A stretch of DNA of 64,000 bases from Micromonospora sp. MP36 (GTDB lineage Bacteria > Actinomycetota > Actinomycetes > Mycobacteriales > Micromonosporaceae). The translations under genes were made by a program, and so were the position numbers. The DNA lies in the NCBI RefSeq assembly GCF_008119785.1, contig NZ_VSFA01000029.1, positions 1 to 64,000 on the forward strand, written 5' to 3'. The notes beneath the pieces were generated by a model. The model was not told where the DNA came from, made no database searches, and was given only the letters and a program-made list of their open reading frames with translations. Below, piece after piece: positions 8,357-37,263 of this stretch. How positions within the stretch are numbered: the first letter of the stretch is position 1; the number at the start of each line of letters is the position of its first letter.

Positions 8357-8393
8357 GCCGCCGCCCGTGTCCAGAGAAGGGAGAGAACCAGGG

Positions 8394-10120: not shown

Positions 10121-11496
10121 CCGGGCCGGCCGCGCAGCCGGGAGGCGGATCCGGCACGGTGTGCGTGATCGGCGGCGGGCTGGCCGGGATCGCCGCCGCG
10201 ATCCGGCTCGCCGACCTCGGCCTGTCCGTGACGCTGCTGGAGACCCGGCCGGAACTGGGTGGGGCGACCTACTCCTTCCGCCGCGACGGCCTCAGCGTGG
10301 ACACCGGCCAGCACGTCTTCCTGCGGTGCTACCACACCTACCGTCGGCTGTTGGACCGGCTCGGCACGGCGGGCGACACCGACCTGCAGCCGCGGTTCAC
10401 GGTGCCGGTGCTGCTGCCGGGACACCGGCCGCAGGTGCTGGCCCGCCGCCGGCTGCCGGCCCCCGCCCACCTGCTGCCGGCGCTGGCCGGATACCGGCTG
10501 CTCAGCCCGGCGGAACGGATCGCCGCCGTCCGGGCCTGCGCCGCGCTGCGCAACGTCGACCCGGACCTGCCCGCCACCGACGAGCGCAGTTTCGGCGACT
10601 GGCTCGCCGCGCACGGCCAGAGCCGCCGGGCCGTCCGGCGACTCTGGGACCTGATCACCGTGGCGGCGCTGAACCTGCCCAGCACCGACGCGTCACTGGC
10701 GCTGGCCGCTCGGGTGTTCCGCACCGGGCTGCTGGAGGCCGCGGACGCCGGTGACATCGGCCGGCCCCGCGTCCCGCTGACCGAGCTGCACGGCGTTGCC
10801 GGCCGTCGGCTGCTCGACCGGCTCGGCGCCCGGGTCCACACCCGGGCGCGGGTCCGCTGGATCCGGCCGGAGCCGACCGGATTCCGGATCGGCCTGGGCG
10901 ACGGCGAGCTGGACGCCGACGGCGTGGTGCTGGCCGTGCCGCACCAGGCCGCCGCGTCGCTGGTGCCGCCCCTCGCCGCGCCCGCCGCCGAGCAGTGGCA
11001 CCGGCTGGGCGCGGCACCCATCGTCAACGTGCACCTGCGCTACGCCACCAAAGTGACCGACCTCGGCATGGCCGCCGCGGTGGAGTCCCCGGCGCAGTGG
11101 ATCTTCGACCGGTCGGAGCCGGGGATGAACGGCGAGCAGCATCTGGTGGTGTCGCTGTCCGCCGCCGACGCGGAGATCGAGCGGCCGGCGGCGGAGCTGG
11201 TGACGACCCAGCGGCAGGCGCTCGCCGACCTGTTCCCGGCCGCGCGGCACACCCCGGTACGCGACGCGTTCGTGACCCGGGAGCCGAAAGCCACCTTCCG
11301 GCAGGCGCCCGGCACCCGGGCGTACCGGCCGGGTCCGGCCACCCGCCTCCCGGGGCTGGTACTGGCCGGCGCATGGACCGACACCGGCTGGCCGGACACG
11401 ATGGAGGGCGCGGTACGCAGCGGCGAGGAGGCCGCCGACATCGTCGCCCGCCAACTCCTGTCCCGGCCCCGACACCACTCGGAGGCCGTATCATGA
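10117..11496 (+). CDS. hpnE: HpnE, squalene-associated FAD-dependent desaturase family
   Basis: 459-residue flavoprotein of the phytoene-desaturase-like family. HpnE reduces hydroxysqualene to squalene. The dinucleotide motif VIGGGLAGIAAAIRLADLG lies near the N-terminus, followed by LETRPELGGATYSF and the DTGQHVFLRCY segment typical of HpnE. The C-terminal FAD contact is seen in LAGAWTDTGWPDTMEGAVRSG. The start overlaps the hpnD stop (ATGA) and the stop overlaps the next gene, so the protein is part of one coupled operon. The length is close to that of other HpnE proteins, and nothing is missing. Confidence 0.93.
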   Translation: MTGPAAQPGGGSGTVCVIGGGLAGIAAAIRLADLGLSVTLLETRPELGGATYSFRRDGLSVDTGQHVFLRCYHTYRRLLDRLGTAGDTDLQPRFTVPVLLPGHRPQVLARRRLPAPAHLLPALAGYRLLSPAERIAAVRACAALRNVDPDLPATDERSFGDWLAAHGQSRRAVRRLWDLITVAALNLPSTDASLALAARVFRTGLLEAADAGDIGRPRVPLTELHGVAGRRLLDRLGARVHTRARVRWIRPEPTGFRIGLGDGELDADGVVLAVPHQAAASLVPPLAAPAAEQWHRLGAAPIVNVHLRYATKVTDLGMAAAVESPAQWIFDRSEPGMNGEQHLVVSLSAADAEIERPAAELVTTQRQALADLFPAARHTPVRDAFVTREPKATFRQAPGTRAYRPGPATRLPGLVLAGAWTDTGWPDTMEGAVRSGEEAADIVARQLLSRPRHHSEAVS

Positions 11497-12500
11497 CCGT
11501 CGCACGCAGTCGCAGCACGGACCAGATCCAGACCTACGTCGAGCCGGCGATCCGGGCCCTGCTGGACCGGTTGGACCCGGGCAACCGCCTGGTCGGGGGC
11601 TACCAGCTGGGCTACTGGGACGCCGACGGATCACCGGCCGCCTGCCAGGGCAAGGGGCTGCGCCCGGCGCTGGCGCTGCTGTCGGCCCGGGCCACCGGCG
11701 CCGAGCCGGCCGCCGGGGTGCCGGCCGCCGCCGCCGTGGAGTTGGCGCACAACTTCTCCCTGCTGCACGACGACGTGATGGACGGTGACACCGAGCGCCG
11801 GCACCGGCCGACCGCGTGGACGGTGTTCGGGGTGGGCCCGGCGATCCTCGCCGGCGACGCGCTGATCGGGTTGGCCCATGAGGTGCTCACCGAGACCCCT
11901 GGCGGCTGCCCGGCCGCCCGGCGACTCGCGGTGGACATCCGGGCGCTGGTCGCCGGGCAGGCGGCCGACCTGGACTTCGAGCGGCGCGACGACGTGACCC
12001 TCGACGAGTGTCTGCGGATGGCGGAGCAGAAGACCGCCGCGCTGTTGGCCGGCTCGTGCGCCCTCGGGGCGATCCTCTGCGGCGGCCCGCCCGGCCTGGT
12101 CGACGGGCTGTCCCGCTTCGGGCGCCACCTCGGACTGGCCTTCCAGCTCGTCGACGACCTGCTCGGCATCTGGGGGGACCCACGCCGCACCGGCAAGCCG
12201 GTCGGCTCGGACCTGCGGACCCGCAAGCGGAGCATCCCGGTCGTGCGGGCGGTGACCAGCGGTCAGGCGGCCGCCCGGGCCCTGGCGGAGCTGTACCGGT
12301 CGCCGCAGCCGTTGACCGACGACGACGTGGCCCGGGCGAGCGCGCTGATCGAGGCGACCGGCGCCCGGGACTGGACGGCGCAGCGGGCGTGGCAGGAGAC
12401 GGAGCGGGCCCGCGCGGAACTGGACGCGCTCGACCTGCCCGACGACGTGCGCGACGAGTTCGTCGATATCGCCACCTTCACCACCGGACGGGATCACTGA
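11493..12500 (+). CDS. polyprenyl diphosphate synthase (FPP/GGPP type)
   Basis: 335-residue all-trans polyprenyl synthase. The first Asp-rich motif is LLHDDVMDGD and the second is LVDDLLGIWGDP, the usual actinobacterial form; the GKGLRPALALLSA segment is also typical. By context it most likely supplies farnesyl diphosphate for squalene, since it sits between hpnE and shc, but chain length cannot be read with certainty. The residues just before the first motif (AHNFSLLHDD) are not bulky aromatics, which would also allow a C20 product. ATG 11493 overlaps the hpnE stop, and the TGA at 12498-12500 shares its A with the shc start. Confidence 0.9.
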   Translation: MTVARSRSTDQIQTYVEPAIRALLDRLDPGNRLVGGYQLGYWDADGSPAACQGKGLRPALALLSARATGAEPAAGVPAAAAVELAHNFSLLHDDVMDGDTERRHRPTAWTVFGVGPAILAGDALIGLAHEVLTETPGGCPAARRLAVDIRALVAGQAADLDFERRDDVTLDECLRMAEQKTAALLAGSCALGAILCGGPPGLVDGLSRFGRHLGLAFQLVDDLLGIWGDPRRTGKPVGSDLRTRKRSIPVVRAVTSGQAAARALAELYRSPQPLTDDDVARASALIEATGARDWTAQRAWQETERARAELDALDLPDDVRDEFVDIATFTTGRDH

Positions 12501-14446
12501 TGACTGAGCTGCTGTCGCCGAAGCCGAAGCCCACCGCCATCGCGACCCGGCCGGGCGCAACGGCGTCCGACCCGGCCTGGGAGGCCCTGCGCCGCGCCCG
12601 GGACCACCTGCTCGGGCTGCAGGACGACGCCGGCTGGTGGAAGGGGAACCTGGCCACGAACGTCACCATGGACGCCGAGGACCTGCTGCTGCGGCAATTC
12701 CTGGGCATCCGGACCGCCGAGCAGACCGCCGAGTCGGCGCGGTGGATCCGCTCCCAGCAGCGCCCGGACGGCTCGTGGGCCACCTTCCACGGCGGGCCGG
12801 GGGACCTCTCCACCACCGTCGAGGCGTACCTGGCGCTACGGCTGGCCGGCGACACGCCGGACGCGCCGCACCTCGCCGCCGCCGCCCGGTTCGTCCGCGC
12901 GCACGGCGGGCTCGCGGCGAGCCGGGTGTTCACCCGGTTCTGGCTGGCCCTGTTCGGCCACTGGCCCTGGTCGCAGCTGCCGGCCGTCCCGCCCGAGCTG
13001 GTGCTGCTGCCGCACTGGATGCCGTTCAACGTCTACGACTTCGCGTGCTGGGCCCGGCAGACCATCGTCCCGCTGTCCATCGTCCGGGCGTTGCGCCCGG
13101 TGCGGGAACTCGGCTTCGACGTCGACGAGCTGCGCACGCCCGCGGCGGCACCGCGGCCGCCCCGGTTGCGGTCCCGGGCCGGGGTGCTGCACCGGTTGGA
13201 CCGGCTCGCCAGCGGCTACGAGCGGATCGCCCGGGGACCGGCGCGCCGGCACGCGCTGCGCCGGGCCGCCGAGTGGATCGTGGCCCGCCAGGAGGCCGAC
13301 GGCTCCTGGGGCGGGATCCAACCGCCCTGGGTCTACTCGCTGATGGCGCTGCACCTGCTCGGCTATCCGCTGGACCACCCGGTGCTGCGGGCCGGACTGG
13401 ACGGGCTGGACCGGTTCACGGTGCGCGAGCAGACCCCGGACGGCCCGGTGCGCTGGTTGGAGGCGTGCCAGTCGCCGGTGTGGGACACCGCGCTCGCGGT
13501 CACCGCGCTGTCCGACGCCGGGCTGCCGGCCGGGCATCCGGCGCTGGAGCGGGCCGGGAAATGGCTCCTGCAGGAGGAGATCCGGGTACGCGGGGACTGG
13601 GCGATCCGCCGGCCGGCGGCCCCGGTGGGCGGCTGGGCCTTCGAGTTCGAGAACGACGGGTACGCCGACACCGACGACACCGCCGAGGTGATCATGGCGT
13701 TGCGGCGGACCGCCGTACCGGCGGAGGGCGCGGTGCTGCGGGGCAGCCGCTGGCTGCTCGGCATGCAGTGCCGCGACGGCGGCTGGGCCGCCTTCGACGC
13801 CGACAACACCCGGGCGATCGTCGGCGACCTGCCGTTCTGCGACTTCGGCGAGGTCATCGACCCGCCCAGCGCGGACGTGACCGCGCACGTCGTCGAGGCG
13901 CTGGCGGCGGAGAACTTCGCCGGCACCCCGCCGGTACGCCGGGGCGTGCACTGGCTGCTGCGGGCCCAGGAGCCGGACGGTTCCTGGTTCGGCCGCTGGG
14001 GCGCCAACCACGTCTACGGCACCGGGGCGGTGGTGCCCGCCCTGGTGGCCGCCGGGGTCAAGCCCGGACACCCGGCGATCCGGGCGGCGGTCGACTGGCT
14101 GCTGGCACACCAGAACCCGGACGGCGGCTGGGGCGAGGACATGCGCTCCTACCGGGACCCGTCCTGGATCGGGCGGGGCGAATCCACGGCCTCGCAGACC
14201 GCCTGGGCGCTGCTCGCGCTGCACGCGGCCGGCCACGGCTCCGGGGAACCGGCGCAGCGCGGGATGCGCTGGCTGGTCGACACGCAGCGGCCGGACGGCG
14301 GCTGGGACGAGCCGCACTACACCGGGACCGGTTTCCCCGGCGACTTCTACATCAACTACGGCATGTACCGGCTGGTCTTCCCGATCAGCGCGCTCGGCCG
14401 GATCCTGAACGCGCGGGGCGGCCTGACCGCCGAGGTGGTGCCGTGA
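12500..14446 (+). CDS. shc: squalene-hopene cyclase
   Basis: 648-residue class II triterpene cyclase that folds squalene into hopene and hopanol at the membrane. The catalytic acid motif DTDDTA has its aspartates at 390, 392 and 393. At least six QW repeats are visible ([61 protein letters not shown]). The length is standard. The ATG at 12500 uses the last base of the preceding stop codon. The first 15 residues ([14 protein letters not shown]) are a variable leader. The gene ends in a GTGA overlap with the HpnG-IspH gene, so it is coupled at both ends. Confidence 0.97.
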
Positions 14447-16005
14447 CCGAGCCAGCGGTACCTCCCGATCCGGCGTGGACCCTGTACGCGCCGATGCGGC
14501 CGGAGGCCGCGGCGCTGCGGCGGGGGCTGACCGGTCTCGATCCGGGACGGTGGCCGGCCCTGCGCCGTACCGGCGCCGGAATCCGGCGCGCCCGGTCGGT
14601 CGCCGCCGGCCGGCCGACCGGGGCGACTCCGGTCGCGGTCGCCGGCATCGGCGGCGGGCTGGCTCCCGGCCTGGCTGCCGGCGACGTCGTGGTGGCCACC
14701 GAGGTACGCGCCGACCCGCGGGCCGGGCACCCGGGGCCGGACGTGCTGCCGATGCCGGCCGCCGCCCTGCTCGCCGCCGCCCTGCGTCGTCGCGGGCTGC
14801 GGGTGCACCTCGGTCCCGTCCTGACCACGACGCGGCTGGTCGACGGCGCGGCCCGGGCCCGGCTGGCCGGCACCGGCGCGCTCGTCGCCGACCTGGAGTC
14901 GGCGTGGCTGCTGGCCGGCTGCGCCGACCGTCCGGCCGCCTGCGTCCGGGTGGTCGCCGACACCGCGGCCGGACCGCTGTACCGACCGGCCACGCTCCGC
15001 CGGATCCGCGCCGCGCTGCGGGTGCTGCCCGCGGTGGCGGCGGCACTGGCCGAGTGGGCGGCGGCCGCCGGCAGCGTCGAGCAGGTGCTGCTGGCCTCGC
15101 CGCGCTCGTTCTGCGCCGGGGTGGAGCGGGCGATCGCGGTGGTGGACCAGGCGCTGCGCCGGCACGGTCCGCCGGTCTACGTCCGCAAGCAGATCGTGCA
15201 CAACGCGCGGGTCGTCGCCGATCTGCGGGCCCGCGGCGCGGTCTTCGTGGACGAACTCGACGAGGTGCCCGACGGCGCGCTGACCATCTTCTCCGCGCAC
15301 GGCGTGTCGCCCGCGGTACGCCAGGAGGCCGCCGACCGGCAGCTGCCGGTCATCGACGCCACCTGTCCGCTGGTGACCAAGGTGCACGCCGAGGCGCGCC
15401 GGTTCGCTGGCCGGGGCGACACGGTGCTGCTGATCGGGCACGCCGGCCACGAGGAGACCGAGGGCACCCTCGGCGAGGCGCCCGCGCGGATCCGGCTGGT
15501 GCCGGACGCGGCCGCCGCCGAGACGGTGCAGGTGACCGACCCCTCCCGGGTGTCCTATCTGGTGCAGACCACGCTGGCGGTGGACGAGGCGGCGGGCGTC
15601 GTGGACGCGCTGCGCCGGCGCTTCCCGGCGCTGACCGGGCCCGGCTCGGACGACATCTGCTACGCCACCACCAACCGGCAGCGGGCCATCACGGCGGTCG
15701 CCGATCGGTCCGACGTCGTGCTGGTGGTCGGGTCGACCAACTCCTCCAACTCCCGCCGACTGGTCGAGGTGGCCGAGCGGGCCGGCGCGCGGGCCCACCT
15801 GGTCGACGACGTGGGCGGTGTGGACCTGCGCTGGCTGGCCGGCGCCACGACGGTCGGGGTGACCGCCGGCGCGTCGGCGCCGCCCGGTCTGGTCGACGAG
15901 CTCGTCGCGGCACTCACCGCGCTCGGTGCCCGGGAGGTGAGCGAGCACACCGCAGCCGTCGAGGACGTCAGCTTCACCCTTCCCAAGGAGGTACGCCAGC
16001 CATGA
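14443..16005 (+). CDS. hpnG-ispH: HpnG-IspH fusion (phosphorylase + HMBPP reductase)
   Basis: 520-residue two-domain protein in one uninterrupted frame. Residues 1 to about 205 match hopanoid-associated phosphorylase HpnG, a nucleosidase-like enzyme thought to remove adenine from adenosylhopane; [20 protein letters not shown] and [10 protein letters not shown] are visible. From [20 protein letters not shown] onward it is a full IspH, the iron-sulfur enzyme that makes IPP and DMAPP. The three cluster cysteines are C224, C308 (DATCPLVTK) and C406 ([10 protein letters not shown]), and the [10 protein letters not shown] and SAHGVSP segments are present. The start is a GTG overlapping the shc stop (GTGA). 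The hpnH start overlaps its stop. The fusion is the odd point; both domains look complete. Confidence 0.9.
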
Positions 16006-17006
16006 GCATGCCGATGCGCCAGAGCCTGCGGATCGCCAGGTACCTGGTCGAACAGAAAGTGCGCGGGCGCAAGCGGTTCCCGCTGCTGCTGGAGCTGGAG
16101 CCGTTGTTCGCCTGCAACCTCAAGTGCGCCGGCTGCGGCAAGATCCAACAGTCGGCGGACCTGCTGAAGCGCCGGATGCCGGTGGAACAGGCACTGGCCG
16201 CCGTGGAGGAGTGCGGCGCGCCGATGATCTCCATCGCCGGCGGCGAGCCCCTCATGCACCCCGAGATCGACACCCTGGTCGCCGAACTGGTGCGCCGGAA
16301 GAAGTACGTCTTCCTCTGCACCAACGCGGTCCTGCTGCCCAAGAAGATCGACAAGTTCCGGCCGTCGCCGTACTTCGCCTTCACGGTGCACATCGACGGG
16401 CTGCGGGAACGACACGACGCGTCGGTGTGCAAGGACGGGGTCTTCGACGCCGCGGTGGCGGCCGTGCGGGAGGCGCAGCGGCGCGGCTTCCGGGTCACCA
16501 CCAACACCACCTTCTTCAACACCGACACCCCGCAGACCGTCATCGAGGTGCTCGACTACCTCAACGACGACCTGCGGGTCGACGAGATGATGCTCTCCCC
16601 GGCGTACGCGTACGAGAAGGCGCCGGACCAGGACCACTTCCTGGGCGTGACGGAGACCCGGGAGCTGTTCCGCAAGGCCTTCGGCGGTGGCCGGCGGGCT
16701 CGCTGGCGGCTCAACCACTCCCCACTGTTCCTGGACTTCCTGGAAGGTCGGGTGGACTTTCCCTGCACGGCGTGGGCCATCCCGTCGTACTCGCTGCTCG
16801 GCTGGCAACGGCCCTGCTACCTGATGGCCGACGGCTACACCGCCAGCTACCGGGAGCTGCTCGACACCACGGACTGGGACAGCTACGGGCGGGGCCGCGA
16901 TGACCGCTGCGCCAACTGCATGGCGCACTGCGGGCACGAACCGACCGCGGTGCTGGCGACCATGTCCTCGCTGCGGCAGTCGCTGCGGGCGGTACGCGGC
17001 GGCTGA
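16002..17006 (+). CDS. hpnH: HpnH, adenosylhopane synthase (radical SAM)
   Basis: 334-residue radical SAM enzyme that adds the 5'-deoxyadenosyl group to diploptene to give adenosylhopane, the precursor of side-chain-extended hopanoids. The cluster motif CNLKCAGC has cysteines at 38, 42 and 45. [14 protein letters not shown] and [13 protein letters not shown] follow in the usual order, and there is a C-terminal Cys set ([12 protein letters not shown]) as in HpnH/SPASM-like proteins. ATG 16002 overlaps the previous stop, and a near-perfect AAGGAGG (15985-15991) precedes it, so this gene may be translated strongly on its own. It is the last gene of the operon and ends 25 bases from the convergent SDR gene. 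Confidence 0.95.
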
Positions 17007-17031
17007 GATCCAGCCCCACCGACGGCCGGGT

Positions 17032-17781
17032 TCACCCGAACCGGGTGGCCAGGCTGCGGTACAGCGCGGGCAGCAGCCCGCGTACGGCCACCGGCAGGCG
17101 CAGCCAGCCCGGGACGTACACCTCGGCCCGGTTCCGGGCGATCGCCTCGGTCAACGCCGCAGCCACCCGCTCCGGTGGCAGCGGTCTCGGCCGGCTCCGG
17201 TGGTACGGCTGCCCCCGGCGGACGAAGAACGGGGTATCCACCACCCCGGGCACGATCGTGCTGACGGTCACTCCGCGGCCGGCCAGCTCCAGCCGGAGGC
17301 TCTCGGCGAAGGCGTCCAGCCCGGCCTTGCTGGCCGCGTAGACCGCTTCCCCGCCCACCCCGAGCCGCCCGGCGATCGAGCCGACGAAGACCAGGTGGCC
17401 GCCGTGGTGGCACATGCCGGGCAGCAGCGCCCGGGTCAGCTCGATCGGTGCGCGCAGGTTCACCGCGAGCAGCTCGTCGGGGAGCGGGTCGGCCATCCCG
17501 GTGAACGGGCCGGCCCAGCCCATGCCGGCGTTGTTGACCAGCACGTCCACCCGGGTGTGCCGGGCCAGGGTCCGCTCGGCCAGTTCCCGGCCGGCGCCGG
17601 GCCGGGTCAGGTCGGTCAGCACCGTGGTGGCGCCGGTCTCGGCGGCGAGCCGGGCCAGTCGGTCCGGGTCCCGACCGGCGGCGACCACCTGACTTCCCGC
17701 GTCGGCCAGCCGTCGGACGAGGGCGGCGCCGATGCCCGACGAGGCGCCGGTGACCAGCACCACCGCGCCGGTCAGCCGCAC
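17032..17781 (-). CDS. SDR-family oxidoreductase
   Basis: 249-residue classical short-chain dehydrogenase. The NAD(P)-binding TGASSGIG lies at the N-terminus, followed by NNAG, a catalytic Ser in VGSIAGR and the YAASK active-site pair. The C-terminal half (RPLPPERVAAALTEAIARN, VYVPGWLRLPVAVRGLLP) resembles the SDRs often annotated as acting on lipids or sterols, but the substrate is unknown. It overlaps the end of the upstream glycosyltransferase/acyltransferase gene by 10 bases, so the two form an operon reading away from 20.4 kb. It converges on hpnH. Its link with hopanoid chemistry is only positional. Confidence 0.88.
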   Translation of the reverse strand: MRLTGAVVLVTGASSGIGAALVRRLADAGSQVVAAGRDPDRLARLAAETGATTVLTDLTRPGAGRELAERTLARHTRVDVLVNNAGMGWAGPFTGMADPLPDELLAVNLRAPIELTRALLPGMCHHGGHLVFVGSIAGRLGVGGEAVYAASKAGLDAFAESLRLELAGRGVTVSTIVPGVVDTPFFVRRGQPYHRSRPRPLPPERVAAALTEAIARNRAEVYVPGWLRLPVAVRGLLPALYRSLATRFG

Positions 17782-20396
17782 GGCGGCGGCTCCGGCGGCG
17801 CCGGAGCCCGCCGCGGCGGCCCCGAAGCGCTCACCGCCGGGGCGCCGACCGTCCGGGCGTCGGCGACCGGCGCGCGGTCGGCCTCGGCGAGCAGCTGGGC
17901 CAGTTCGGCGTGCAGGGCGGCGACGAACGCGGGGCCGACCTCGGCCAGCGACGCGTCCAGCAGTGCGCCGACCTCGAAGGTGTCACCGCCGCGCAGGATG
18001 CCGACCCCGACGGGCACCCCCTCGGCGAGCGGGACCACCGGGGTGGCCGACCGGAGCGGCGCGCCGGCCACCTCCAGCGGACGCAGCGGCGCCGGGACGT
18101 AGGAGACGATCACGTTGAGGTGCCGGCTGCTGTAGAACCGCCGCGCCAGGGCGGCGTGCAGCGGCGCGGGCAGCGCCCCCATCGCCCGCATGACCAGGCC
18201 GGCCGCCTCGGGTTCCCCGCTGCGCAGCGCGGTACGCAGCGACTGCCGGACCACGGCGACCCGGAACCGGGGCGGGATGCGCCGCACCGGCAGGTCGAGC
18301 GTGACCGCACCGGTCCAGTTCCCCTGTGTGGGCGCCCGGCGGCGAAGGTCACGGGAGACCGCGAACATCGCCCGCAGCCGGGGCGGCGCCGGCGTGGGGT
18401 GCACCCGACCCAGCGCCCCGGCGGTCAGCGCCAGCATGAGTTCGCTGGCGTGCGCCCGGCAGGCCCGGGCCGCGCGCAACACCTCGGCGGCGGGCAGGGT
18501 GGCGGTGACCAGGATCCGGCGCGGTGAGCTCAGCGGGCGGTTGAGCTCGGTGGCCGGGGCCGGCCCCTGCGCGGCCAGGCGGGCCAGCCCGCGTGCGGTC
18601 AGCGCGACCCGACGCGCCGTGTCCCGGACCCGGTCACCCTTCCCCGCCCCGTCCCGCGCCGGTCGGGCCGGTGCCCATCCGGCCGGCTTCGCCGCCGGGG
18701 TGGTGGCCGGCTCGAGCAGCCGTTGCAGGACCCCGATCGCCGACAGCCCGTCGCCGAGGCAGTGATGCAGCTTGACCGCGACCCGGCTACGCCGGTCCGG
18801 CAGCCCGCCGACCAGCAGGATCTGCCAGGGTGGCCGGTCCAGGGCCAGCGGCTGGGACCAGAACCGGTCCACGGCGGCGCTGCCGTCGTCGCCCGGCGCG
18901 ACCCGCGCCTCGGCCAGGTGGGCGGCGGGATCGACGTACCGGTCGACGACCCAGCCGGGCCGGCGTCCGGGCCCCCGGCTGACCAGCCGGCGACGCAGGG
19001 TGGTGATCGCGGGTAGCCGCCGCGCCAGCAGCGTGACCAGATCCTCGCGGGTCAGGGCCTCGCCGTCGGGCCGGGGCCCGAACTCCAGCACCACACCGAT
19101 CTCTTGGGCCACCGTGGCCGACTGCACGTACCGGAAGAACGCGTCCTGTGGGCGAAGGGGCCAGCTGGGCGGCCGGCGGCCGGCCGGCCCACCGGGAGAC
19201 GGGGTCGGGCGGTCGCCGGCGGGTGGCGCTGCCTCGACCGGCGAGCGCGCCCCGGCGACGGCCGGCAGCCCGAGGTCCGGCAGATGGGGGTGGGGCTCGC
19301 GCAGCGGGTGGGGCGGGTGCGGGCCGACCAGCCGGGAGCGGACGACGGCGACCAGCGCGGCCGGGTCGCGGGCCGTCTCGGCCAGCCCGGCGGCGGTCAT
19401 CAACGCCGCGTTGGCGGCGCCGTGCGCGGCGATCGGCCGGTACATCACCACCGGCGTGCCGCTGGCCCACGCCTCCAGCGCGGTCGCCCCGCCCGCGTTG
19501 GTGACCAGCAGGTGCGCGGCCTGCAGCAGGGTCGGCATGTCCTCGACCCAGGCGCGCACCACCAGCCTGCCGGCCGGGGCGGGCAGCCGCGCCAGCCGGT
19601 CGGCCAGCTGTTCGTTGCGTCCGCAGACCGCGACCACCTGCACCGCGTCCCCGATGCCGACCAGCGGGGCGATCGCCTCCTCGACCGAGCCCAGGCTGTA
19701 GGAGCCGCAGGCGACCACCACCACCTTCCGGTCCGGGTCGAGACCGCAGCGCCGGGCCGCCTCGGCCCGGTCACCGGGCCGGAACCGCTGCAGCACCGGT
19801 GGCGCGCAGACCCCGAGCGCCGCGCCCGGGGCGGCGACCGCCGCCACCGGCACCGCCGCCGGGTGCACCACCACTCCCAGATCCAGTTGTGAATACACCC
19901 AGAACGGGTGCGGGGCGAAGTCGGACACCCAGGCCCCGACCGGTACGCCGAGACCGCGGTGCCGCCGTAGCCAGGCCAGCCCGGCACTGCCGATCGGGTA
20001 GGTGGAGAGGATCAGGTCCGGGTCGAACGCCTCGATGACCGGGGCGAGCCGTCGGCCGGCCCAGGAACCGGTGAACCACTTCGAGGCGTCGGCGAACCAC
20101 CGGTGCCGCCACAGCGAGGACCAGAAGAACTCGTACAACCAGGGCGTCGCCCCGACATTGGTGAGGTAGGTGCGACGAAAGGTCGGCCCGACTCCCGGAC
20201 CCATCGCGTCGAGGGTGTCCACCCAGCCCACCCGGCTACCCGGCCAGAGCGCGTGGACGCGTTCCTCGAGCGCCCGGCCGGTGGCGTCGTGCCCGCCCCC
20301 GATGTCGGCCGAGACGATCAGCACGCGCCGCGCGATCGACCCGGCCGGATCCGGCGGCCGGATCGGCTGACCCGGCCCGCTGTCGGCCGCGATCAC
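17772..20396 (-). CDS. glycosyltransferase (MGDG-synthase-like) fused to WS/DGAT acyltransferase
   Basis: 874 residues in one frame. Residues about 20-350 form a GT-B glycosyltransferase of the MGDG synthase/MurG kind: SADIGGGHDATGRAL at the acceptor side, and a donor-side LLVTNAGGATALEAWASGTP. A proline-rich linker (about 352-416) joins it to a full-length (about 457 residues) wax ester synthase/diacylglycerol acyltransferase domain with the catalytic HHCLGDG at 544-550. The protein could therefore glycosylate and acylate a lipid, or make a glycolipid and a storage lipid in one place; which is not readable. The start is GTG 20396 without a clear ribosome site. The following SDR overlaps by 10 bases. 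Confidence 0.85.
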   Translation of the reverse strand: MIAADSGPGQPIRPPDPAGSIARRVLIVSADIGGGHDATGRALEERVHALWPGSRVGWVDTLDAMGPGVGPTFRRTYLTNVGATPWLYEFFWSSLWRHRWFADASKWFTGSWAGRRLAPVIEAFDPDLILSTYPIGSAGLAWLRRHRGLGVPVGAWVSDFAPHPFWVYSQLDLGVVVHPAAVPVAAVAAPGAALGVCAPPVLQRFRPGDRAEAARRCGLDPDRKVVVVACGSYSLGSVEEAIAPLVGIGDAVQVVAVCGRNEQLADRLARLPAPAGRLVVRAWVEDMPTLLQAAHLLVTNAGGATALEAWASGTPVVMYRPIAAHGAANAALMTAAGLAETARDPAALVAVVRSRLVGPHPPHPLREPHPHLPDLGLPAVAGARSPVEAAPPAGDRPTPSPGGPAGRRPPSWPLRPQDAFFRYVQSATVAQEIGVVLEFGPRPDGEALTREDLVTLLARRLPAITTLRRRLVSRGPGRRPGWVVDRYVDPAAHLAEARVAPGDDGSAAVDRFWSQPLALDRPPWQILLVGGLPDRRSRVAVKLHHCLGDGLSAIGVLQRLLEPATTPAAKPAGWAPARPARDGAGKGDRVRDTARRVALTARGLARLAAQGPAPATELNRPLSSPRRILVTATLPAAEVLRAARACRAHASELMLALTAGALGRVHPTPAPPRLRAMFAVSRDLRRRAPTQGNWTGAVTLDLPVRRIPPRFRVAVVRQSLRTALRSGEPEAAGLVMRAMGALPAPLHAALARRFYSSRHLNVIVSYVPAPLRPLEVAGAPLRSATPVVPLAEGVPVGVGILRGGDTFEVGALLDASLAEVGPAFVAALHAELAQLLAEADRAPVADARTVGAPAVSASGPPRRAPAPPEPPPCG

Positions 20397-29942: not shown

Positions 29943-30065
29943 CCGTCCCGCCGTTCCTGTCGTACCCGTGGCCCATGATCCTTGTCGTCACGGCGGCGCC
30001 GGCTCGTTCCGGCGTCGACATCGTCATGGGCGACGCCGGGCGCGGCGGGCGGGGAGGTCGGGAAG

Positions 30066-30572
30066 GTGGCGGACGTGGACGACGCCGGGTGGGCACGGCG
30101 AAGTAGCGTGCGGGTGGTGCCGGCGGCCCGGCCCCGGAAGCTGGCCAAGGTGCCCTTCGTGGAGCTGGCCGACGGGCGGCTGCAGGGTGTGGTGTCCAGC
30201 GGGTCGGACATCGAGCGGGTGTACGTCTCGTCGCTCACCTCCGGCACCCACGCCTACCACTGCAGCACCAACAACAACCGGCCCTGCGGCGGCCTGCGCG
30301 GCACCCCGTGCAAGCACCTGGAGGCCCTGGCCGACGAGGCGATCCTGCAGTACGGCCTCGACCGGGTCGCCCGCTACCTGCGGGTCGACGCCGGCGACGG
30401 GGTGACCACCGGCGCGGAGCTGCTGGGCCGCCTCGACGCGCGGCACGAGCCGACCCAGGCGGCGGTGGTGTTCAGCCGGTTTTTGCGCCACCTGTCCTAC
30501 CTGGAGGTGCCGAGCAGCACCACGCCGCTGCCGGAGCTGCACTGGTTCCCGTCCACCGGGGCGGGCCGCTGA
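30066..30572 (+). CDS. SWIM-type zinc finger protein (YehQ N-terminal part)
   Basis: 168 residues. A Cys/His cluster C66-x7-C74-x7-C82-x-H84 (ending GTPCKHLEAL) resembles a SWIM zinc finger (CxCxnCxH), with a longer first spacing than the consensus. SWIM domains bind DNA or proteins. The frame is open to a TTG at 29982, but I chose GTG 30066, eight bases after GGGGAGG. The stop shares its A with the next ATG (TGATG), so it is coupled. With the 465-residue protein that follows, it corresponds to the two halves of E. coli YehQ, a 668-residue SWIM protein of the yehLMPQ group, which here is two genes. Confidence 0.8.
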   Translation: MADVDDAGWARRSSVRVVPAARPRKLAKVPFVELADGRLQGVVSSGSDIERVYVSSLTSGTHAYHCSTNNNRPCGGLRGTPCKHLEALADEAILQYGLDRVARYLRVDAGDGVTTGAELLGRLDARHEPTQAAVVFSRFLRHLSYLEVPSSTTPLPELHWFPSTGAGR

Positions 30573-31969
30573 TGCTCGGTACGCAGCTCACTGCCCTGAC
30601 CGACGGCCACCCGGCCGGGCTGACCGACGCCCTCGACCTGGTGGCGGGCGTCGACGCCGCCCTGGCCCACGGCCTGGCCCGGGTCGGCGAGGCGGACGCG
30701 GCGGCGCTGGCTAGCCTGGCCGCCGCGCTGGGGACCACCCCGCTGGCCGACCTGGTCGCCGAGGCGGTCGACAAGATCTGCGCCGGCTCGGTGACCCCGG
30801 AGCACCTCGCCGCGCTCGCCGGTGCCCGGTCGGCGCTGCTCGGCGCCGCGCACGACGCGCTGCTCGGGCAGCTCGACGCCGCGCTGGGCCGCGGCCGCGT
30901 CCCGTGGTCGCCGGCCCCACCGGCCGCGCCCTCGCCCGTCCTGGCCGGCGCGCGGGCCTGGTTGCACGAGGTGGCCGTGACCGGCTGGCGGGGCGTCGAC
31001 CACGAGCTGGTGGCCGCAGCCGGGACGCCGGTCGAGGCCGCGTTGGCCGCACCGGAGTCGCGCCGGCTCGCCGTGCTGCTCGACGGTCTCGCCGCCGAGC
31101 TGCGGGCCTGCGTGCCGGTCGCCGCGATGCCGCAGGTGCCGGCGCGCCGGTGGGCCGACCTGTGGGCCCGGGGCGTGCTGCTCGCCCAGGACGCCGGCGC
31201 GGTCGATCCCGTGACCGAGGTCGACCGGGTCGACGGGCGGCTGCTGCCGCTCGGCGTGGACGTGCACGAGCACGACACCGCGATGCAGATCCAGGTGCAC
31301 GCGATCCTCGAACCGGCCGCCGGCGGGCCGCCGCGGCTGGTCCGCACGGCGGTGGGCGCGGCCAAGGTGGACACGATCGTCGGCCCGGCCCTGTGGCGGC
31401 TCCTCCAGGCATACCCCACCCTGCTGGCCGCGCTGGCCCAGCGGCGCGGCGTGACGGTCGCCGACCTGCCGGTCCGCGGCGCGGACCTGCGCTGGCAGGA
31501 CGACCGGGCGCAGCTCGACGGGCCGGTCGACCCGTTCGCCGCGGCGCGGGTCCTGCTGCCCGGCGCCCAGGCGGCGGCGACCGCGCCGCTGGACCGGCAT
31601 CCGGCCGCGATCGCCGAACCCGTCCTCCTCGAGGGGTACGCCGTCGGCGACCACGACGGCGACCTCGTCCTGGAGCTGGACGGCCGCCCGCTCGCCGTGG
31701 CGGTCGACCGGCTGCCCTCCTGCGGGCCGCTCACCCCGGAGCTGGTCGCCGCCTCGTCGGCCTGTCTCGGCCTGCTGCGCTGGGACGACGGCCGGTGGCG
31801 GCTGCAGCCGTTGGCGGTGCGGGCGACCGTCAAGCGCAAGGCCGTCGACGTGCACACCGGCGACTGGGCGTGCGGGATCACCGACGCGAAGGTCGCGAAG
31901 GCCGAGGCGAAGGCCGGCGACGCCGTGGCGGTGCTGCGCGAACGCGCGGGACGATTGCTGCGGCGATGA
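30572..31969 (+). CDS. uncharacterised protein of the MoxR-VWA operon (YehQ C-terminal part)
   Basis: 465 residues, mostly alpha-helical by composition in the first half, with beta segments later (VDRVDGRLLPLGVDVHEHD, GDLVLELDGRPLAVAVDRLP). No catalytic motif is evident. It sits directly between the SWIM gene and the VWA gene, starts on the last base of the SWIM stop and ends in an ATGA overlap, so stoichiometric expression with its neighbours is likely. In position it corresponds to the part of YehQ after the zinc finger. I infer a scaffold or substrate-recognition role for the AAA+ complex; this is not shown by sequence. Confidence 0.75.
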   Translation: MLGTQLTALTDGHPAGLTDALDLVAGVDAALAHGLARVGEADAAALASLAAALGTTPLADLVAEAVDKICAGSVTPEHLAALAGARSALLGAAHDALLGQLDAALGRGRVPWSPAPPAAPSPVLAGARAWLHEVAVTGWRGVDHELVAAAGTPVEAALAAPESRRLAVLLDGLAAELRACVPVAAMPQVPARRWADLWARGVLLAQDAGAVDPVTEVDRVDGRLLPLGVDVHEHDTAMQIQVHAILEPAAGGPPRLVRTAVGAAKVDTIVGPALWRLLQAYPTLLAALAQRRGVTVADLPVRGADLRWQDDRAQLDGPVDPFAAARVLLPGAQAAATAPLDRHPAAIAEPVLLEGYAVGDHDGDLVLELDGRPLAVAVDRLPSCGPLTPELVAASSACLGLLRWDDGRWRLQPLAVRATVKRKAVDVHTGDWACGITDAKVAKAEAKAGDAVAVLRERAGRLLRR

Positions 31970-33309
31970 CCCACCACGACCACGACCGCGCCGACGAGAA
32001 CCGGCGGCAGGTGCTCTACTGGCGGCTGCTGGCCCGGCTCTTCGACCCCACCGAGCAGCCCACCCTGGAATCGGCGAGCATGGCCGTCGTCGAGGACCTG
32101 GGCCTGCCGGCCGCGCTGCTGGACCCGGCGGTCTCGGTGGACACCGTGGTGCAGCGCTTCCCGGCGCTCGCCGCCGAACTGCGTGGCCTGCTGACCGCGG
32201 CCGAGGGTGCGGCGGCGTCCGACGACCCCACCGGGCGGCGGCCCGGGCCGGCCGAGGTACGCCGCGCCGCGCTGGTGTCGAAGGTGCTGCTGAACGTGTT
32301 CGCGACCGGCGCCGGGCCGGTCAGCGCCGGCCAGCTGGCCCGGTGGCAGTCCGACGCCGGCTGGTTCGAGCAGGCGCTCGGCGCCGAGCCGGGCGAGCTG
32401 CGCCGGCAGGGCGGCACCGGGCTGGGCGGCACGCTCGCCGCCCTGGAGGGTGACCTCGTACGCCGCATGCACCTGCGCGAGGTCCTCGCCGACCCGGCGC
32501 TGGCCAGCCGGCTCACGCCGAGCATGTCGCTGATCGAGCAGCTGCTGCGGGACAAGGCCAACCTGTCCGGGGTGGCCCTGGCCAACGCCAAGGCACTGAT
32601 CCGCCGCTTCGTCGACGAGGTCGCCGAGGTGCTGCGTACGCAGGTGGAGCAGGCCAGCGTGGGGGCGATCGACCGGTCGGTGCCGCCGAAGCGGGTGTTC
32701 CGCAACCTCGACCTGGACCGCACCATCTGGCAGAACCTGACCAACTGGAGCCCGGAGGACCAGCGGCTCTACGTCGACCGGCTCTACTACCGGCAGACCG
32801 CCCGGCGGACCACACCGGCACGCCTGATCGTGGTGGTGGACCAGTCCGGTTCGATGGTCGACTCGATGGTCAACTGCACCATCCTGGCGTCGATCTTCGC
32901 CGGGCTGCCCAAGGTGGACGTGCACCTGATCGCGTACGACACCCGGGCGCTGGACCTGACGCCGTGGGTGCACGACCCGTTCGAGGTGCTGCTGCGCACC
33001 AACCTGGGCGGCGGCAACGACGGACCGGTCGCCATGGCGATGGCCCGTCCCAAGATCACCGAACCGCGCAACACGGTGCTGGTCTGGATCTCGGACTTCT
33101 ACGAGTTCGACCGCTCGCAGCCGTTGTTCGACGGCATCGAGGCCGTGCACCGCTCCGGCGTGCGGTTCATCCCGGTCGGCTCGGTCAACAGCTCCGGCCA
33201 GCAGAGCGTCAACCCCTGGTTCCGGCAACGGTTCACGGACCTGGGCACCCCGGTGATCTCCGGTCACATCCGCAAACTCGTCTTCGAGCTCAAGAGCTTC
33301 CTCACCTAG
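31966..33309 (+). CDS. VWA-domain protein, MoxR partner (YehP-like)
   Basis: 447 residues. The N-terminal 280 residues are helical. A C-terminal von Willebrand factor A domain starts at ARLIVVVDQSGSM, with the MIDAS metal site D292-x-S294-x-S296; the conserved later loops (TNLGGGNDGPVA, VLVWISDFYEF) also fit. VWA proteins of this kind act as adaptors for MoxR AAA+ ATPases, as ViaA does for RavA. ATG 31966 overlaps the previous stop. The AAA+ gene starts 13 bases after its stop. E. coli YehP is the nearest known counterpart by domain and gene order. Confidence 0.88.
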   Translation: MTHHDHDRADENRRQVLYWRLLARLFDPTEQPTLESASMAVVEDLGLPAALLDPAVSVDTVVQRFPALAAELRGLLTAAEGAAASDDPTGRRPGPAEVRRAALVSKVLLNVFATGAGPVSAGQLARWQSDAGWFEQALGAEPGELRRQGGTGLGGTLAALEGDLVRRMHLREVLADPALASRLTPSMSLIEQLLRDKANLSGVALANAKALIRRFVDEVAEVLRTQVEQASVGAIDRSVPPKRVFRNLDLDRTIWQNLTNWSPEDQRLYVDRLYYRQTARRTTPARLIVVVDQSGSMVDSMVNCTILASIFAGLPKVDVHLIAYDTRALDLTPWVHDPFEVLLRTNLGGGNDGPVAMAMARPKITEPRNTVLVWISDFYEFDRSQPLFDGIEAVHRSGVRFIPVGSVNSSGQQSVNPWFRQRFTDLGTPVISGHIRKLVFELKSFLT

Positions 33310-33322
33310 GAGTCCACCCTTC

Positions 33323-34435
33323 ATGTCCGAGATGCTGCGTGCCCCCGCCGAGGTCAAGTACGCCGACGAACTCGACTACCTGGAGTCGGTCGACACCGAC
33401 CCGAAGCCGTTCTCCTGGCGGCTCAGCCCGCGCATGGTCCGGCTGTTCGTCCTCGGTTCCGAACGGGCCGACGGCCTGGACCGGGAGATCCCGCAGAAGT
33501 GGTTCGGCGACCGCACCTTCGTCGAACGCAGCATCGTGACGCTCGCCTCCGACCGGGGTCTGCTGCTGATCGGTGACCCGGGCACCGGCAAGAGCTGGCT
33601 GGCCGAGCTGCTCGCCGCCGCGATCTGCCGCAACTCCACTCTCGTCGTGCAGGGCACCGCCGGCACCACCGAGGACCACATCAAATACTCGTGGAACGTG
33701 TCCATGGTCATCGCCCGCGGGCAGTCCCGCGAGTCGATGATCCCGTCGCCGATCATGACCGCGATGGAGCAGGGCGTGATCGGCCGCTTCGAGGAGCTGA
33801 CCCGCTCCACCAGCGACGTGCAGGACGCGCTCATCTCCATCCTGTCGGAGAAGTACGTCTCGATCCCCGAGCTGAACGACGACAACATCGTCTTCGCCCG
33901 GCCCGGCTTCTCCGTCATCGCCACCGCGAACAGCCGCGACCGGGGCGTCAACGACCTCTCCTCCGCGCTCAAGCGGCGGTTCAACTTCGTCCGGATCCCG
34001 GTGGTGACCAACAAGCGCAGCGAGGCGGAGATCGTCCGGTTCCGCACCGAGGAGTTGCTGCGCCGGCACCGCATCGAGTTGGAGGTTCCGCCCACCCTGC
34101 TGGACATCCTGCTGCAGAGCTTCGCCGACCTGCGTACCGCCGCCGCGGCGGCGACCAGCGACGACGAGAAGCTCGAATCGGCGCTGTCCACCGCCGAGCA
34201 GATCGGCGTCCTGGAGGACGCCATCCTGCACAGCCAGTTCTTCGGCGACCGGATGCTGCGCGCCGAGACGTTGGCCGGCTCGCTGATGGGCTCGCTGGCC
34301 CGGCGCAGCCCGGAGGACCTGGCGATCCTCAACAAGTACCTGCACGGGGTGGTGGAGCCCCGGGCCAAGCAGGACGGCGGCGGCTGGGAGGGTTTCCTCG
34401 ACGGCGGGCGCCAGGCGATCGCCGCCCTGTCATGA
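33323..34435 (+). CDS. MoxR-family AAA+ ATPase (YehL-like)
   Basis: 370 residues. Walker A is GDPGTGKS (84-91), and the sensor-1 strand is FSVIATANSRDRGVND. The arginine-bearing ALKRRFNFVRIP segment and the helical lid follow. MoxR ATPases form hexamers that remodel or mature protein complexes together with VWA partners. The N-terminal 60 residues before the ATPase core are a YehL-like extension. A GGAG lies about 11 bases before the ATG, a loose spacing, but a 13-base gap to the upstream stop suggests co-translation. Its own stop overlaps the start of the DUF5682 gene (ATGA). Confidence 0.9.
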   Translation: MSEMLRAPAEVKYADELDYLESVDTDPKPFSWRLSPRMVRLFVLGSERADGLDREIPQKWFGDRTFVERSIVTLASDRGLLLIGDPGTGKSWLAELLAAAICRNSTLVVQGTAGTTEDHIKYSWNVSMVIARGQSRESMIPSPIMTAMEQGVIGRFEELTRSTSDVQDALISILSEKYVSIPELNDDNIVFARPGFSVIATANSRDRGVNDLSSALKRRFNFVRIPVVTNKRSEAEIVRFRTEELLRRHRIELEVPPTLLDILLQSFADLRTAAAAATSDDEKLESALSTAEQIGVLEDAILHSQFFGDRMLRAETLAGSLMGSLARRSPEDLAILNKYLHGVVEPRAKQDGGGWEGFLDGGRQAIAALS

Positions 34436-37263
34436 CCGCCGCCGTCGCCGGCCCGTTCGGTGCCCTGCGTCAGCAGCTCACCGACGCCGCCGTTGCCTTC
34501 GCCGACTCCCCCGATGCGCTCGCCGGCATCCTCGCCGGCCTGGTCGACGACGTCGACCGGGCGCTCGCCGTGCCGTTGGAGATCTTCCCGGTGTGCCACC
34601 ACTCGCCGGCCTCGGCGCTGGCGATGCTGCGCCGGCTGCGCGCGAAGCAGCCCCGGGTGATCTACCTGGAGCTCTGCGAGGATCTGCAACCGCTCCTGGG
34701 CGAGCTGCGCAACTGCCGCCTCCCGGTGGCCGTGCAGGCGTTCGCCGCCGAGCTGGACGGCCACCCGGCCGAGTGGGGCCCGCTCAGCGTGGTCGCGCCG
34801 ATCACCGAGTCCTCCGCCGAATACCAGGCCATCGCGTACGCGCTGGAGACGCCGGGCGTGGAGCTAGTGCTGGTGGACCGCTCCACCGACCACGTCTTCC
34901 AGTGGCTGCCCCGCGACCGGCCGGAGCCGACCCGCCCAGGCGGCGGGGAGGTCGACGCGGGCGAGGACGGCGGGCGGCCCGGCGACGAGGGTGCCCTGCA
35001 CGGCGACGCGGTCGGCGTGGAGATCGGCGACCTGCGGCCCGGCTTCGCCGAGCTGGAGGCGTACCTGCTGCACCACGGCAAGGTGCGGCACTGGTCGGAG
35101 TGGTGGGACCAGTACGTCGAGCAGCCGCTCGCCGACGCCGATCACGACACCTACCGCCAGGTGATGGTGCTCATCGGCAGCCTGTTCCGGCGGCTGCGCC
35201 CGGCCCGCTCCGCGCGGCTCGACCGCGACGAGGACCGCGAGCGGTACATGTGGACCCGGATGCGCGAACACCTCGCCGCCTCCGGCGTCGACCCCGCCGA
35301 CTGCCTCTACGTCTGCGGCGCCTTCCACGCCGCCAGCCACGTGGAGCAGTTCGGCCTCGCCGCCGACGCGCCCGCGTACGAGATCAGCCCGCGCACCGGC
35401 ACCCGCTGGCACTACGGGCTGATCCCGTCCAGCCACTCGGCCATCGAGGCCCAGTTCGGCCTCGCCCCGGGATCGGTCTCCATCGCCGCGGCCACCTGGA
35501 CCAAGGCGCTGACCCGCGCCGGTCTCACCGGCTACCGGCTAGACGGGCAGCGTGGCAGCCGCACCCGGGCCAAGGGCCGCCGCGCGGTCGCCGGTGCCGT
35601 CCCGGGCACCGGGGTCACCGACCGCCTCTCCGGGTTCCTCGCCGCACCACCCGAACCCGGCGGTCTCGACGAGGCGGAGCTGCGCGGCTGGTGTGTCGAC
35701 ATCGTCCGGCTCGCTCGCCGCAACGGCTACCTGGCCAGCACCGCCGACGCGATCGCCGTCTTCGAGACCGCGATCCTCCTGGCCGGGCTGCGCAACCGGG
35801 CCCGCCCCACCCCGTACGACTTCGCCGACGCGGCGGTCACCTGCATCGAGAAGGACGTGGTGCCCGGCCGGCGCGACGTCCGCCGGCTCTGCGAGATCCT
35901 GCTCGGCGGGGACCGGGTCGGTCAGGTCGGTTACGACGCGCTCCCGCCGCTGGCCCGTGACGTCCTCGACCGGCTCCGACCGCTCGGCCTCGACCTGGAG
36001 AAGCGTACGGTCCAGCGGGCCCTGTTGGACCTGGACGCCGACCCGCGGCTGGCACCCTGCTCGGATCTGCTCTGGATGCTGCGATATCTGCTCCCACCCG
36101 ACGCGGTCCGCCCGATCATGGGCGAGCGGCGGCTGGGGCACCGGTCCATCCAGGAGAGCTGGGACCTCGCGCTCGGCCGCAACCAGCGGGCGTTGATCGA
36201 GCTGGGCTACGAGGGCGTCACCGTGGAGCAGGTGCTGGAGCAGCGGCTGCGCCGGGCGGTCCGTGGCCCGGAGGCCACCGCGTCCGGTGCCCTGGCGGCC
36301 GTCGAGGAGGCCATCCGGCTGCTCGACAGCCCGCGTCTGGTCGACGAGCTGGGCGCCCGGGCGGTGGAGCTGCTCGCCGCCGAGCGCACCGTCGACGACG
36401 CGCCGGAGGTGCTGCGCCGCATCCGCCGGTTGCTGGCCCACTACCGGGCCACCGCGCCAGCCCTGCCGGCCTGGTGCGCGGGGTTCGTGACCGCCGGCTA
36501 CGCCCACTACTGCACCCTGCTGCCGACCGCGGTCGTCGACGAGCAGACCGGCGTCCGGCAGGTCGGCGCCATGCTCGGCTTCCTGTTCAGCATGGAGAGC
36601 CTGGCGCTGTCCCTCGGCTGCGACCGGACGCAGCTCGAACTCGCCGTCGCGCAGTCCCATCCGGAGGCGCCCGCCAAGGTCGCCCTGCTGTGGGCGGCCC
36701 GGCACCAGTTGGGCCTGCTGCCCCTCGCCGAGTTGCGGGCCCGCTGCGCCGACCTGCTGGCGAACCGGCTGGTCGTGCCGACCTTCCCGCAGTACCTCTC
36801 CGGCTTCGTGCAGGCCCTGGAACCGGTGCCCGGCCTGGCGCCGTTCGTGGTGGAGCTGATGTCGACCGCGTTCGGTCAGCTGCCCGACCCGATCCTGCTG
36901 CCCTGGCTTCCCACGCTCATCACCACGCTGCGCGAGCACGGGCCGGAGCTGGTGCCACTGCTGATCCGCGAGGCGGGGCGTACCTTTCCCGGCGGCCTGG
37001 CCACGCTGGACGCCTGGGTGCCACCCTGGGCGGCACCGGCGGCAGCACCGACGCCGGCGGGGCCGGTCGCGCGGGCGGGGCCGGTCGTCCGCCTGCTGGT
37101 GGACCATCCCGAGGCTGTCGACGCGGTCGCGGGGCTGCTCGGCTGCCCTGGTGAGTGGCGGCGGGCCGACGCACCCGCGCACGCCGAGGTGGCGGCGCTG
37201 CTCAGCCAGCATCCGGAGGCGACCGAGGCGGTGGCCGGCCTGCTGGCGGCCGGCACGGGCTGA
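34432..37263 (+). CDS. DUF5682-family large protein (YehM-like)
   Basis: 943 residues. The N-terminal 400 residues contain a compact alpha/beta region with VCHHSPASALAMLRRL, a YLELCED strand, VCGAFHAASHVEQF and SSHSAIEAQFG, where clustered His and Glu residues suggest a metal-dependent or hydrolase-like site; this resembles the EreA/ChaN/TraB-type fold, but that link is inference. The remaining 540 residues are helical and repeat-like (long Leu-rich runs), fitting a protein-interaction platform. It is the last gene of the coupled operon and is longer than E. coli YehM. No enzymatic role is established for the family. Confidence 0.8.
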   Translation: MTAAVAGPFGALRQQLTDAAVAFADSPDALAGILAGLVDDVDRALAVPLEIFPVCHHSPASALAMLRRLRAKQPRVIYLELCEDLQPLLGELRNCRLPVAVQAFAAELDGHPAEWGPLSVVAPITESSAEYQAIAYALETPGVELVLVDRSTDHVFQWLPRDRPEPTRPGGGEVDAGEDGGRPGDEGALHGDAVGVEIGDLRPGFAELEAYLLHHGKVRHWSEWWDQYVEQPLADADHDTYRQVMVLIGSLFRRLRPARSARLDRDEDRERYMWTRMREHLAASGVDPADCLYVCGAFHAASHVEQFGLAADAPAYEISPRTGTRWHYGLIPSSHSAIEAQFGLAPGSVSIAAATWTKALTRAGLTGYRLDGQRGSRTRAKGRRAVAGAVPGTGVTDRLSGFLAAPPEPGGLDEAELRGWCVDIVRLARRNGYLASTADAIAVFETAILLAGLRNRARPTPYDFADAAVTCIEKDVVPGRRDVRRLCEILLGGDRVGQVGYDALPPLARDVLDRLRPLGLDLEKRTVQRALLDLDADPRLAPCSDLLWMLRYLLPPDAVRPIMGERRLGHRSIQESWDLALGRNQRALIELGYEGVTVEQVLEQRLRRAVRGPEATASGALAAVEEAIRLLDSPRLVDELGARAVELLAAERTVDDAPEVLRRIRRLLAHYRATAPALPAWCAGFVTAGYAHYCTLLPTAVVDEQTGVRQVGAMLGFLFSMESLALSLGCDRTQLELAVAQSHPEAPAKVALLWAARHQLGLLPLAELRARCADLLANRLVVPTFPQYLSGFVQALEPVPGLAPFVVELMSTAFGQLPDPILLPWLPTLITTLREHGPELVPLLIREAGRTFPGGLATLDAWVPPWAAPAAAPTPAGPVARAGPVVRLLVDHPEAVDAVAGLLGCPGEWRRADAPAHAEVAALLSQHPEATEAVAGLLAAGTG

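Follow-up and report, generated by a model that had tools for sequence, protein, structure and literature searches.

A five-gene MoxR-VWA-DUF5682 operon of Micromonospora with a PafBC-like promoter element and a putative TraB/PrgY-type hydrolase

MoxR proteins, among which a YehL subfamily has been named in the literature, have been described as chaperones for the maturation of complexes (PMC3893208), and ternary conflict systems, in which a MoxR and VWA pair occurs with a third large protein, have been proposed and described as enriched in multicellular bacteria (Kaur et al. 2020, PMC7159879; PMC10907252). In Escherichia coli K-12, MoxR, DUF5682, CoxE-type VWA and SWIM proteins are encoded in one cluster, yehL-yehM-yehP-yehQ, with yehF, yehH and yehI upstream. 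No functional paper on such clusters was found, and the name DUF5682 was absent from the literature searched. In this study, we analyzed an operon with these components in a 64,000-nucleotide stretch of the Micromonospora sp. MP36 genome (the window, whose coordinates are used throughout). Two findings go beyond an earlier sequence-only reading of this DNA, namely, a PafBC-type motif before the first gene and a TraB/PrgY-type domain in the DUF5682 protein. We tentatively suggest that the operon may encode a DNA-damage-induced, ATP-driven machine that would bring a TraB-like hydrolase to nucleic acid. The damage-promoter motif before four differently built versions of the system, together with the proposed hydrolase residues of DUF5682, makes an open annotation testable.

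Operon layout and relation to other DUF5682 systems

The operon proposed by the sequence-only reading is real. It consists of five closely coupled genes, encoding a SWIM-like protein, a protein here called Q, a VWA protein, a MoxR ATPase and a DUF5682 protein, at positions 30066–37263 of the forward strand, with three overlaps of 1–4 bases and one 13-base gap at their junctions, and codon-position G+C agrees with the five called frames. Across 84,980 species, each represented by a single genome, a scan confirmed 531 stretches, and the 80 best of these were used for locus counts; every title among these 80 is an actinomycete. The five genes occur in the same order on one strand in 77 of the 80 loci, a tblastn count that scores gene presence and order rather than intactness of the frames, and the remaining three are cut by contig ends. 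The claim that the five genes are conserved together thus survived the neighborhood survey, which had been set beforehand as its refutation test. Since the next most common flanking family was present at only 14 of the 80 loci, the unit consists of exactly five genes.

Comparison with other DUF5682 loci distinguished four branches. In the A branch, DUF5682 is fused to VWA and SWIM comes last; the B branch runs YehI-like DUF4132, MoxR, DUF5682, VWA, SWIM, as in E. coli; the E branch runs SWIM, X, MoxR, DUF5682, VWA (25 loci read); and the window operon represents the C branch. In a MoxR tree of 33 rows, C forms one group (99/100), as do A and E (100/100 each). The B rows, among which E. coli YehL is placed, do not form a single group, owing to the stray position of L147; the branch of the RavA outgroup is very long. 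Two of the 77 C loci (L030 and L031) adjoin a second, B-type system. Additionally, the window's genome carries a second, A-type locus (C318; L026, 1167–14125), with a DUF5682-VWA fusion and the published form of the PafBC motif before its first gene.

The domain set is of the YehL/M/P/Q kind, as previously proposed. The DUF5682 protein matches PF18934 (E 3.3e-31, 108.9 bits; Pfam cut-off 26) and the VWA protein matches VWA_CoxE (PF05762, E 1.9e-29, 103.1 bits; cut-off 26.4), and C-branch VWA proteins are 30–33% identical to YehP. The MoxR protein matches AAA_5 (PF07728, E 1.8e-36) and is of the YehL kind, grouping with the YehL-type MoxR proteins of other DUF5682 loci; its sole other match in its own genome at E 0.001 is the MoxR protein of the second DUF5682 locus (44%). 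Reading of the sequence confirmed that the Walker A motif of the ATPase and the metal ion-dependent adhesion site (MIDAS) of the VWA protein are intact, the latter being invariant in seven sequences. In contrast, the identification of the operon with E. coli yehLMPQ itself did not hold. The E. coli order MoxR-DUF5682-VWA-SWIM differs from the C order SWIM-Q-VWA-MoxR-DUF5682 of 77 of the 80 loci; the C MoxR proteins form a separate clade; the SWIM and OB-like (oligonucleotide/oligosaccharide-binding) parts lie in two genes; and a YehI-like (DUF4132) gene is near the C operon in only three of the 80 loci (L030, L031 and L097), belonging in the first two to the adjacent B system. By these sequence comparisons, the C operon is a separate lineage. 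At L097, the YehI-like gene lies beside the SWIM gene (1810–4335), and the promoter element described below is also absent there.

The E branch shares with C the five-gene set, the leading position of SWIM and a PafBC-type motif upstream of it (10 of 22 loci), but differs in that VWA comes last and X differs from Q; an identification of Q with X was rejected (E 0.15). In three E loci (L156, L173 and L174), SWIM and X are fused into proteins of 820–1043 residues, which suggests that the two act together.

Neither the SWIM-like protein nor Q matched a Pfam family up to E 1 or any NCBIfam family, and the name SWIM therefore rests on the motif. The atypical first spacing noted earlier was borne out (C-x7-C-x7-C-K-H), and none of C66, C74, C82 and H84 varies among 39 sequences. 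Q was predicted well (predicted local distance difference test (pLDDT) 89.4; predicted template modeling score (pTM) 0.88) as a helical bundle to approximately residue 205 followed by two OB-like barrels. The best Foldseek matches of the barrels are the tandem OB proteins CST (E 1.8e-3) and a HIN domain (E 2.4e-3, probability 0.99), and RPA and SSB are also matched, none below E 1e-3. In VIA, CST reached Z 6.1 (91 residues, 3.4 Å) and HIN Z 5.0 (149 residues, 4.7 Å); the Z values of the OB matches range from 4 to 6, under the level that excludes a common arrangement, and two helical matches outrank them. Profiles were compared by hhalign; E-values refer to single pairs, and 29 families built from flanking genes served as nulls. 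The SWIM-like protein joined to Q could be aligned over its full length with the SWIM protein of the E branch (E 0.0041, 411 columns; lowest of the 29 nulls 0.041), and Q by itself gave E 0.16. Against the B-branch YehQ profile, Q gave E 0.0095 (lowest null 0.21), compared with 0.0012 for a smaller first profile. The earlier proposal of a split YehQ is thus weak in its profile match and favored by the predicted helical bundle and barrels, and it is plausible that the SWIM-like protein and Q together correspond to YehQ.

Promoter element and the N-terminal domain of DUF5682

A conservation island before the SWIM gene was found unsought, and it contains a variant of the PafBC motif. The published motif is TGTCGG-N10-TA-N3-T, with the variants TGTCAG and TGTCAC (PMC8151990), and PafBC, which single-stranded DNA activates, works through sigma adaptation at a -26 promoter motif (PMC11804915). 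The published motif is present upstream of the first gene in 27/84 C, 10/22 E, 9/14 B and 3/6 A loci, compared with 7 of 780 flanking genes, none of 255 VWA, MoxR and DUF5682 genes inside C operons, and none of the 25 MoxR and 22 X genes inside E operons; Fisher p values against the controls run from 2e-23 to 3e-5, for loci that are not independent. A looser motif occurs in 66/84 C, 15/22 E, 10/14 B and 3/6 A loci, compared with 20/780 flanking genes, 2/255 C-internal genes, 2/25 E-branch MoxR genes and 0/22 X genes. The C loci with the published form belong to seven genera: Nonomuraea (17/18), Microbispora (3/5), Streptosporangium (2/5), Planobispora (2/2), Sphaerisporangium (1/2), Actinoallomurus (1/3) and Nocardia (1/1). 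The C rows of Micromonospora and Salinispora carry the same form as the window, TGTCGT-N10-CA-N3-T. As a positive control, recA is preceded by the published form in 24 of the 25 relatives, and its site in most Micromonospora rows, TGTCGGACCC, is near to the operon's own TGTCGTACCC. Several E-branch sites lie 29 bases upstream of the called start, as in a leaderless message. Furthermore, Deinococcus WGR/DUF4132 genes are up on DdrO depletion, and MolR is described in the LexA regulon (PMC8533742); relatives of these WGR/DUF4132 genes are partners of the B branch, which was counted for a link to damage. Collectively, these comparisons suggest DNA damage as the most likely trigger of operon expression.

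Control of the C operon by LexA was set aside. The best matches to the LexA 16-mer upstream of the operon have 2–5 mismatches, and those with at most three occur in 27/84 real and 10/84 shuffled sequences, a weak excess. The E. coli locus (L027, positions 6000–19500) contains no perfect CTGT-N8-ACAG; a near-match with one mismatch, possible by chance, lies at approximately 6450, 25 bases before yehF. As a separate observation on the control gene, recA of L214, L215 and L216 (G045, G014 and G008) matched in two pieces approximately 1.1–1.3 kb apart within one open frame, an intein-like arrangement.

The earlier suggestion that the N-terminus of DUF5682 looks like an enzyme was strengthened. Twelve residues (E80, S128, E130, D149, W225, E230, R253, R269, E270, M273, G296 and H299) are invariant in 64/64 DUF5682 sequences from the four branches, and H56, H57 and P59 occur in every one of the 59 sequences that extend to these positions, the other five beginning too late, perhaps from gene calling. 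The His-Glu-His motif positions of the TraB/PrgY family are thus present and conserved; TIKI enzymes have a 2His/2Glu set (PMC6254334). Similar to PrgY of pCF10, DUF5682 shows, in the same order, GxxH near the N-terminus, Glu 24 residues later, D, R-x-x-(Y)-(L/M) and GxxH. In contrast, PrgY has a membrane part, which DUF5682 lacks, and the long helical-repeat C-terminal region sets DUF5682 apart from the TraB/PrgY family.

Against a PrgY template profile of six Enterococcus sequences, hhalign gave Prob 87% and E 4e-6 for a mixed N-terminal profile, Prob 86% for A and B, and 84% for all 64 sequences (E 4e-6 to 7e-6), and Prob 39.7% and E 3e-4 for the E branch by itself. The lowest of the null families gave E 0.075, and the sole other low control was the SWIM-like family (E 0.0055). 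Because the C profile alone fails, the assignment reaches the C branch through its DUF5682 relatives rather than directly. A relationship of DUF5682 to erythromycin esterase (Ere) was not significant (E 0.17 and 0.099), and the TraB/PrgY side is preferred for that reason. The N-terminal part of the DUF5682 model is poor (mean pLDDT 64.6, pTM 0.40); the fold search with it was filled by helical repeats and is uninformative, no TIKI-fold protein being among the rows shown. The best fold-search Z of the helical-repeat region, 8.4, may reflect merely a common arrangement. Collectively, these comparisons make the N-terminal domain a putative hydrolase of the TraB/PrgY (TIKI) family, which has proteases among its members.

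Proposed mechanism and competing explanations

Under the damage-response reading, PafBC-type control would switch the operon on under DNA damage in this strain. The SWIM-like protein and Q would be the nucleic-acid-binding parts, with exposed or damaged DNA as their probable ligand. The MoxR ring, coupled in a complex through the MIDAS of the VWA protein, would spend ATP on remodeling a protein at the site or on opening DUF5682, which, as a TraB-like hydrolase of the His-Glu-His kind carried by a helical-repeat scaffold, would cut the target. The simplest target would be a protein stuck on DNA; that the operon serves to remove proteins from DNA is a guess. A broader version, which we consider rather unlikely, would place at least four parallel actinobacterial versions of one damage-induced MoxR-VWA and zinc/OB machine, E. 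coli yehLMPQ being the same machine, in the delivery of a TraB-like protease to DNA-trapped proteins. If true, bacteria would have a counterpart, by its logic, to the ATP-driven proteolysis of DNA-protein crosslinks.

Several observations weigh against the damage-response reading. The window site deviates twice from the published motif (GT for GG and CA for TA), and the published form was found in none of the Micromonospora and Salinispora C operons (15 genus-labeled loci, the window, L013, L017–L019 and L182). The looser motif was framed after the Micromonospora variant had been seen, and a matrix trained on the same sequences still found no site at 10 of the 84 C loci. For DUF5682, the C branch by itself did not match PrgY significantly (Prob 0.7%, E 0.075), Pfam and PDB sequence searches gave no TraB match, and the Ere family gave no significant match. 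The OB matches of Q are under the firm thresholds of Foldseek and VIA. Moreover, the patchy distribution argues against a housekeeping repair role: DUF5682 is present in 20 of 61 relatives, and the C type, by score, in nine of them, one broken.

The main rival of DNA-protein removal is a suicide or anti-phage use, in which the SWIM/OB proteins would sense foreign or broken DNA, the MoxR-VWA pair would set a threshold and DUF5682 would be the toxic effector; DNA-damage control would tie such a system to phage attack. We consider it somewhat unlikely. It would suit the patchiness within the genus (present in 8 of its 37 genomes, in one as a decayed copy), the proposed MoxR-vWA ternary conflict systems, the variable chromosomal site and the flanks, which differ from those in the window at each compared locus. 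Among the relatives L013–L020, no flanking gene matches any window gene (L016 has no flanks), and the nearest relative, G825, keeps the operon site, whereas G821 lacks the operon and has three other genes there. G010 was rejected as a simple empty site; its family 65 glycosyl hydrolase (GH65) and monooxygenase genes are adjacent, but GH65 is inverted, and G821 is the better case. One copy (L020, 5769–12006) is decaying: it has lost SWIM, Q, VWA and the first part of MoxR, an unrelated reverse-strand gene splits its DUF5682, and transposase-like genes have broken the copy. However, the proteins are strongly conserved rather than diversifying (DUF5682 72–88% and MoxR 80–98% identity), 35 pattern matches on viral contigs included no relative, and only 5 of 72,556 plasmid records had matches. 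PADLOC gave no convincing system, only partial matches of the ATPase (best mad8, 1.6e-5) and the VWA protein (TerY, 3.5e-4) and none for the SWIM-like protein, Q or DUF5682. Unlike in the ternary systems, the third protein is DUF5682, and no VMAP, iSTAND or beta-propeller component was found among the five proteins with Pfam (bpMoxR, E 0.076, is below the cut-off). The conflict role suggested earlier thus found no direct support.

The remaining explanations concern the partners and the promoter. A maturation chaperone of the CoxD/CoxE type, in which the MoxR-VWA pair would load a client with a metal or cofactor, DUF5682 and the SWIM-like protein being handling factors, would fit the CoxE-type VWA protein, the described role of MoxR proteins and the tie of related E. 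coli genes to molybdate through the name MolR (PMC8533742). Nevertheless, no client metalloenzyme is conserved near the operon, where the next family reaches 14 of 80 loci, and the DNA-damage promoter and the zinc and OB-like modules would be left unexplained, making this account improbable. Alternatively, the TGTCG...A...T element could be an ordinary promoter shared by descent, with the operon not regulated by damage; Micromonospora sites lack the TA of the -10 part, and loci within one genus are not independent. This is unlikely, given that the published form occurs in seven C genera and also in the three further branches, whose first genes differ, but is nearly absent upstream of other genes.

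Features of the window and wider occurrence

Features of the operon are listed below. In a phylum sample, 7 of 396 genomes matched, one through a short frame with stops, and the other six genomes measure 6.3–9.2 Mb; an even sample of 394 genomes of the class had DUF5682 in 105.

Table 1. Coordinates of the operon and its features in the window
Feature	Positions	Strand	Details
PafBC-like element	29958..29979	+	TGTCGT-N10-CA-N3-T, conserved variant of TGTCGG-N10-TA-N3-T; upstream of the SWIM-like gene
SWIM-like zinc protein gene	30066..30572	+	GTG start, 168 aa; motif only, no Pfam match
Zinc motif	30261..30317	+	C-x7-C-x7-C-K-H; residues 66-84 of the SWIM-like protein
Q gene	30572..31969	+	465 aa; N-terminal helices and C-terminal OB-like barrels (predicted)
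Predicted tandem OB-like region	31223..31855	+	Residues 218-428 of Q; Foldseek, VIA
CoxE-type VWA gene	31966..33309	+	447 aa; PF05762
MIDAS motif	32839..32853	+	DQSGS; residues 292-296 of the VWA protein; invariant in 7 sequences
YehL-type MoxR AAA+ ATPase gene	33323..34435	+	370 aa; PF07728
Walker A motif	33572..33595	+	GDPGTGKS; residues 84-91 of MoxR; read from the sequence
DUF5682 gene	34432..37263	+	943 aa; PF18934
TraB/PrgY-like (TIKI superfamily) domain, putative	34567..35361	+	DUF5682 residues 46-310; H56-H57, E80, E230, H299; hhalign
Predicted helical-repeat region	36169..37011	+	DUF5682 residues 580-860; local pLDDT mostly 68-95

The operon is flanked by ordinary chromosome genes, with a family 65 glycosyl hydrolase gene and a spermidine-synthase-like gene upstream and an FAD monooxygenase gene downstream. 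Elsewhere in the window, positions 8430–14446 hold a hopanoid-type set of two squalene/phytoene synthases, an amine-oxidase-like protein, a polyprenyl synthetase and a squalene-hopene cyclase. At 60702–61626, a DUF742 protein is followed by a small GTP/ATP-binding protein, an actinobacterial pairing.

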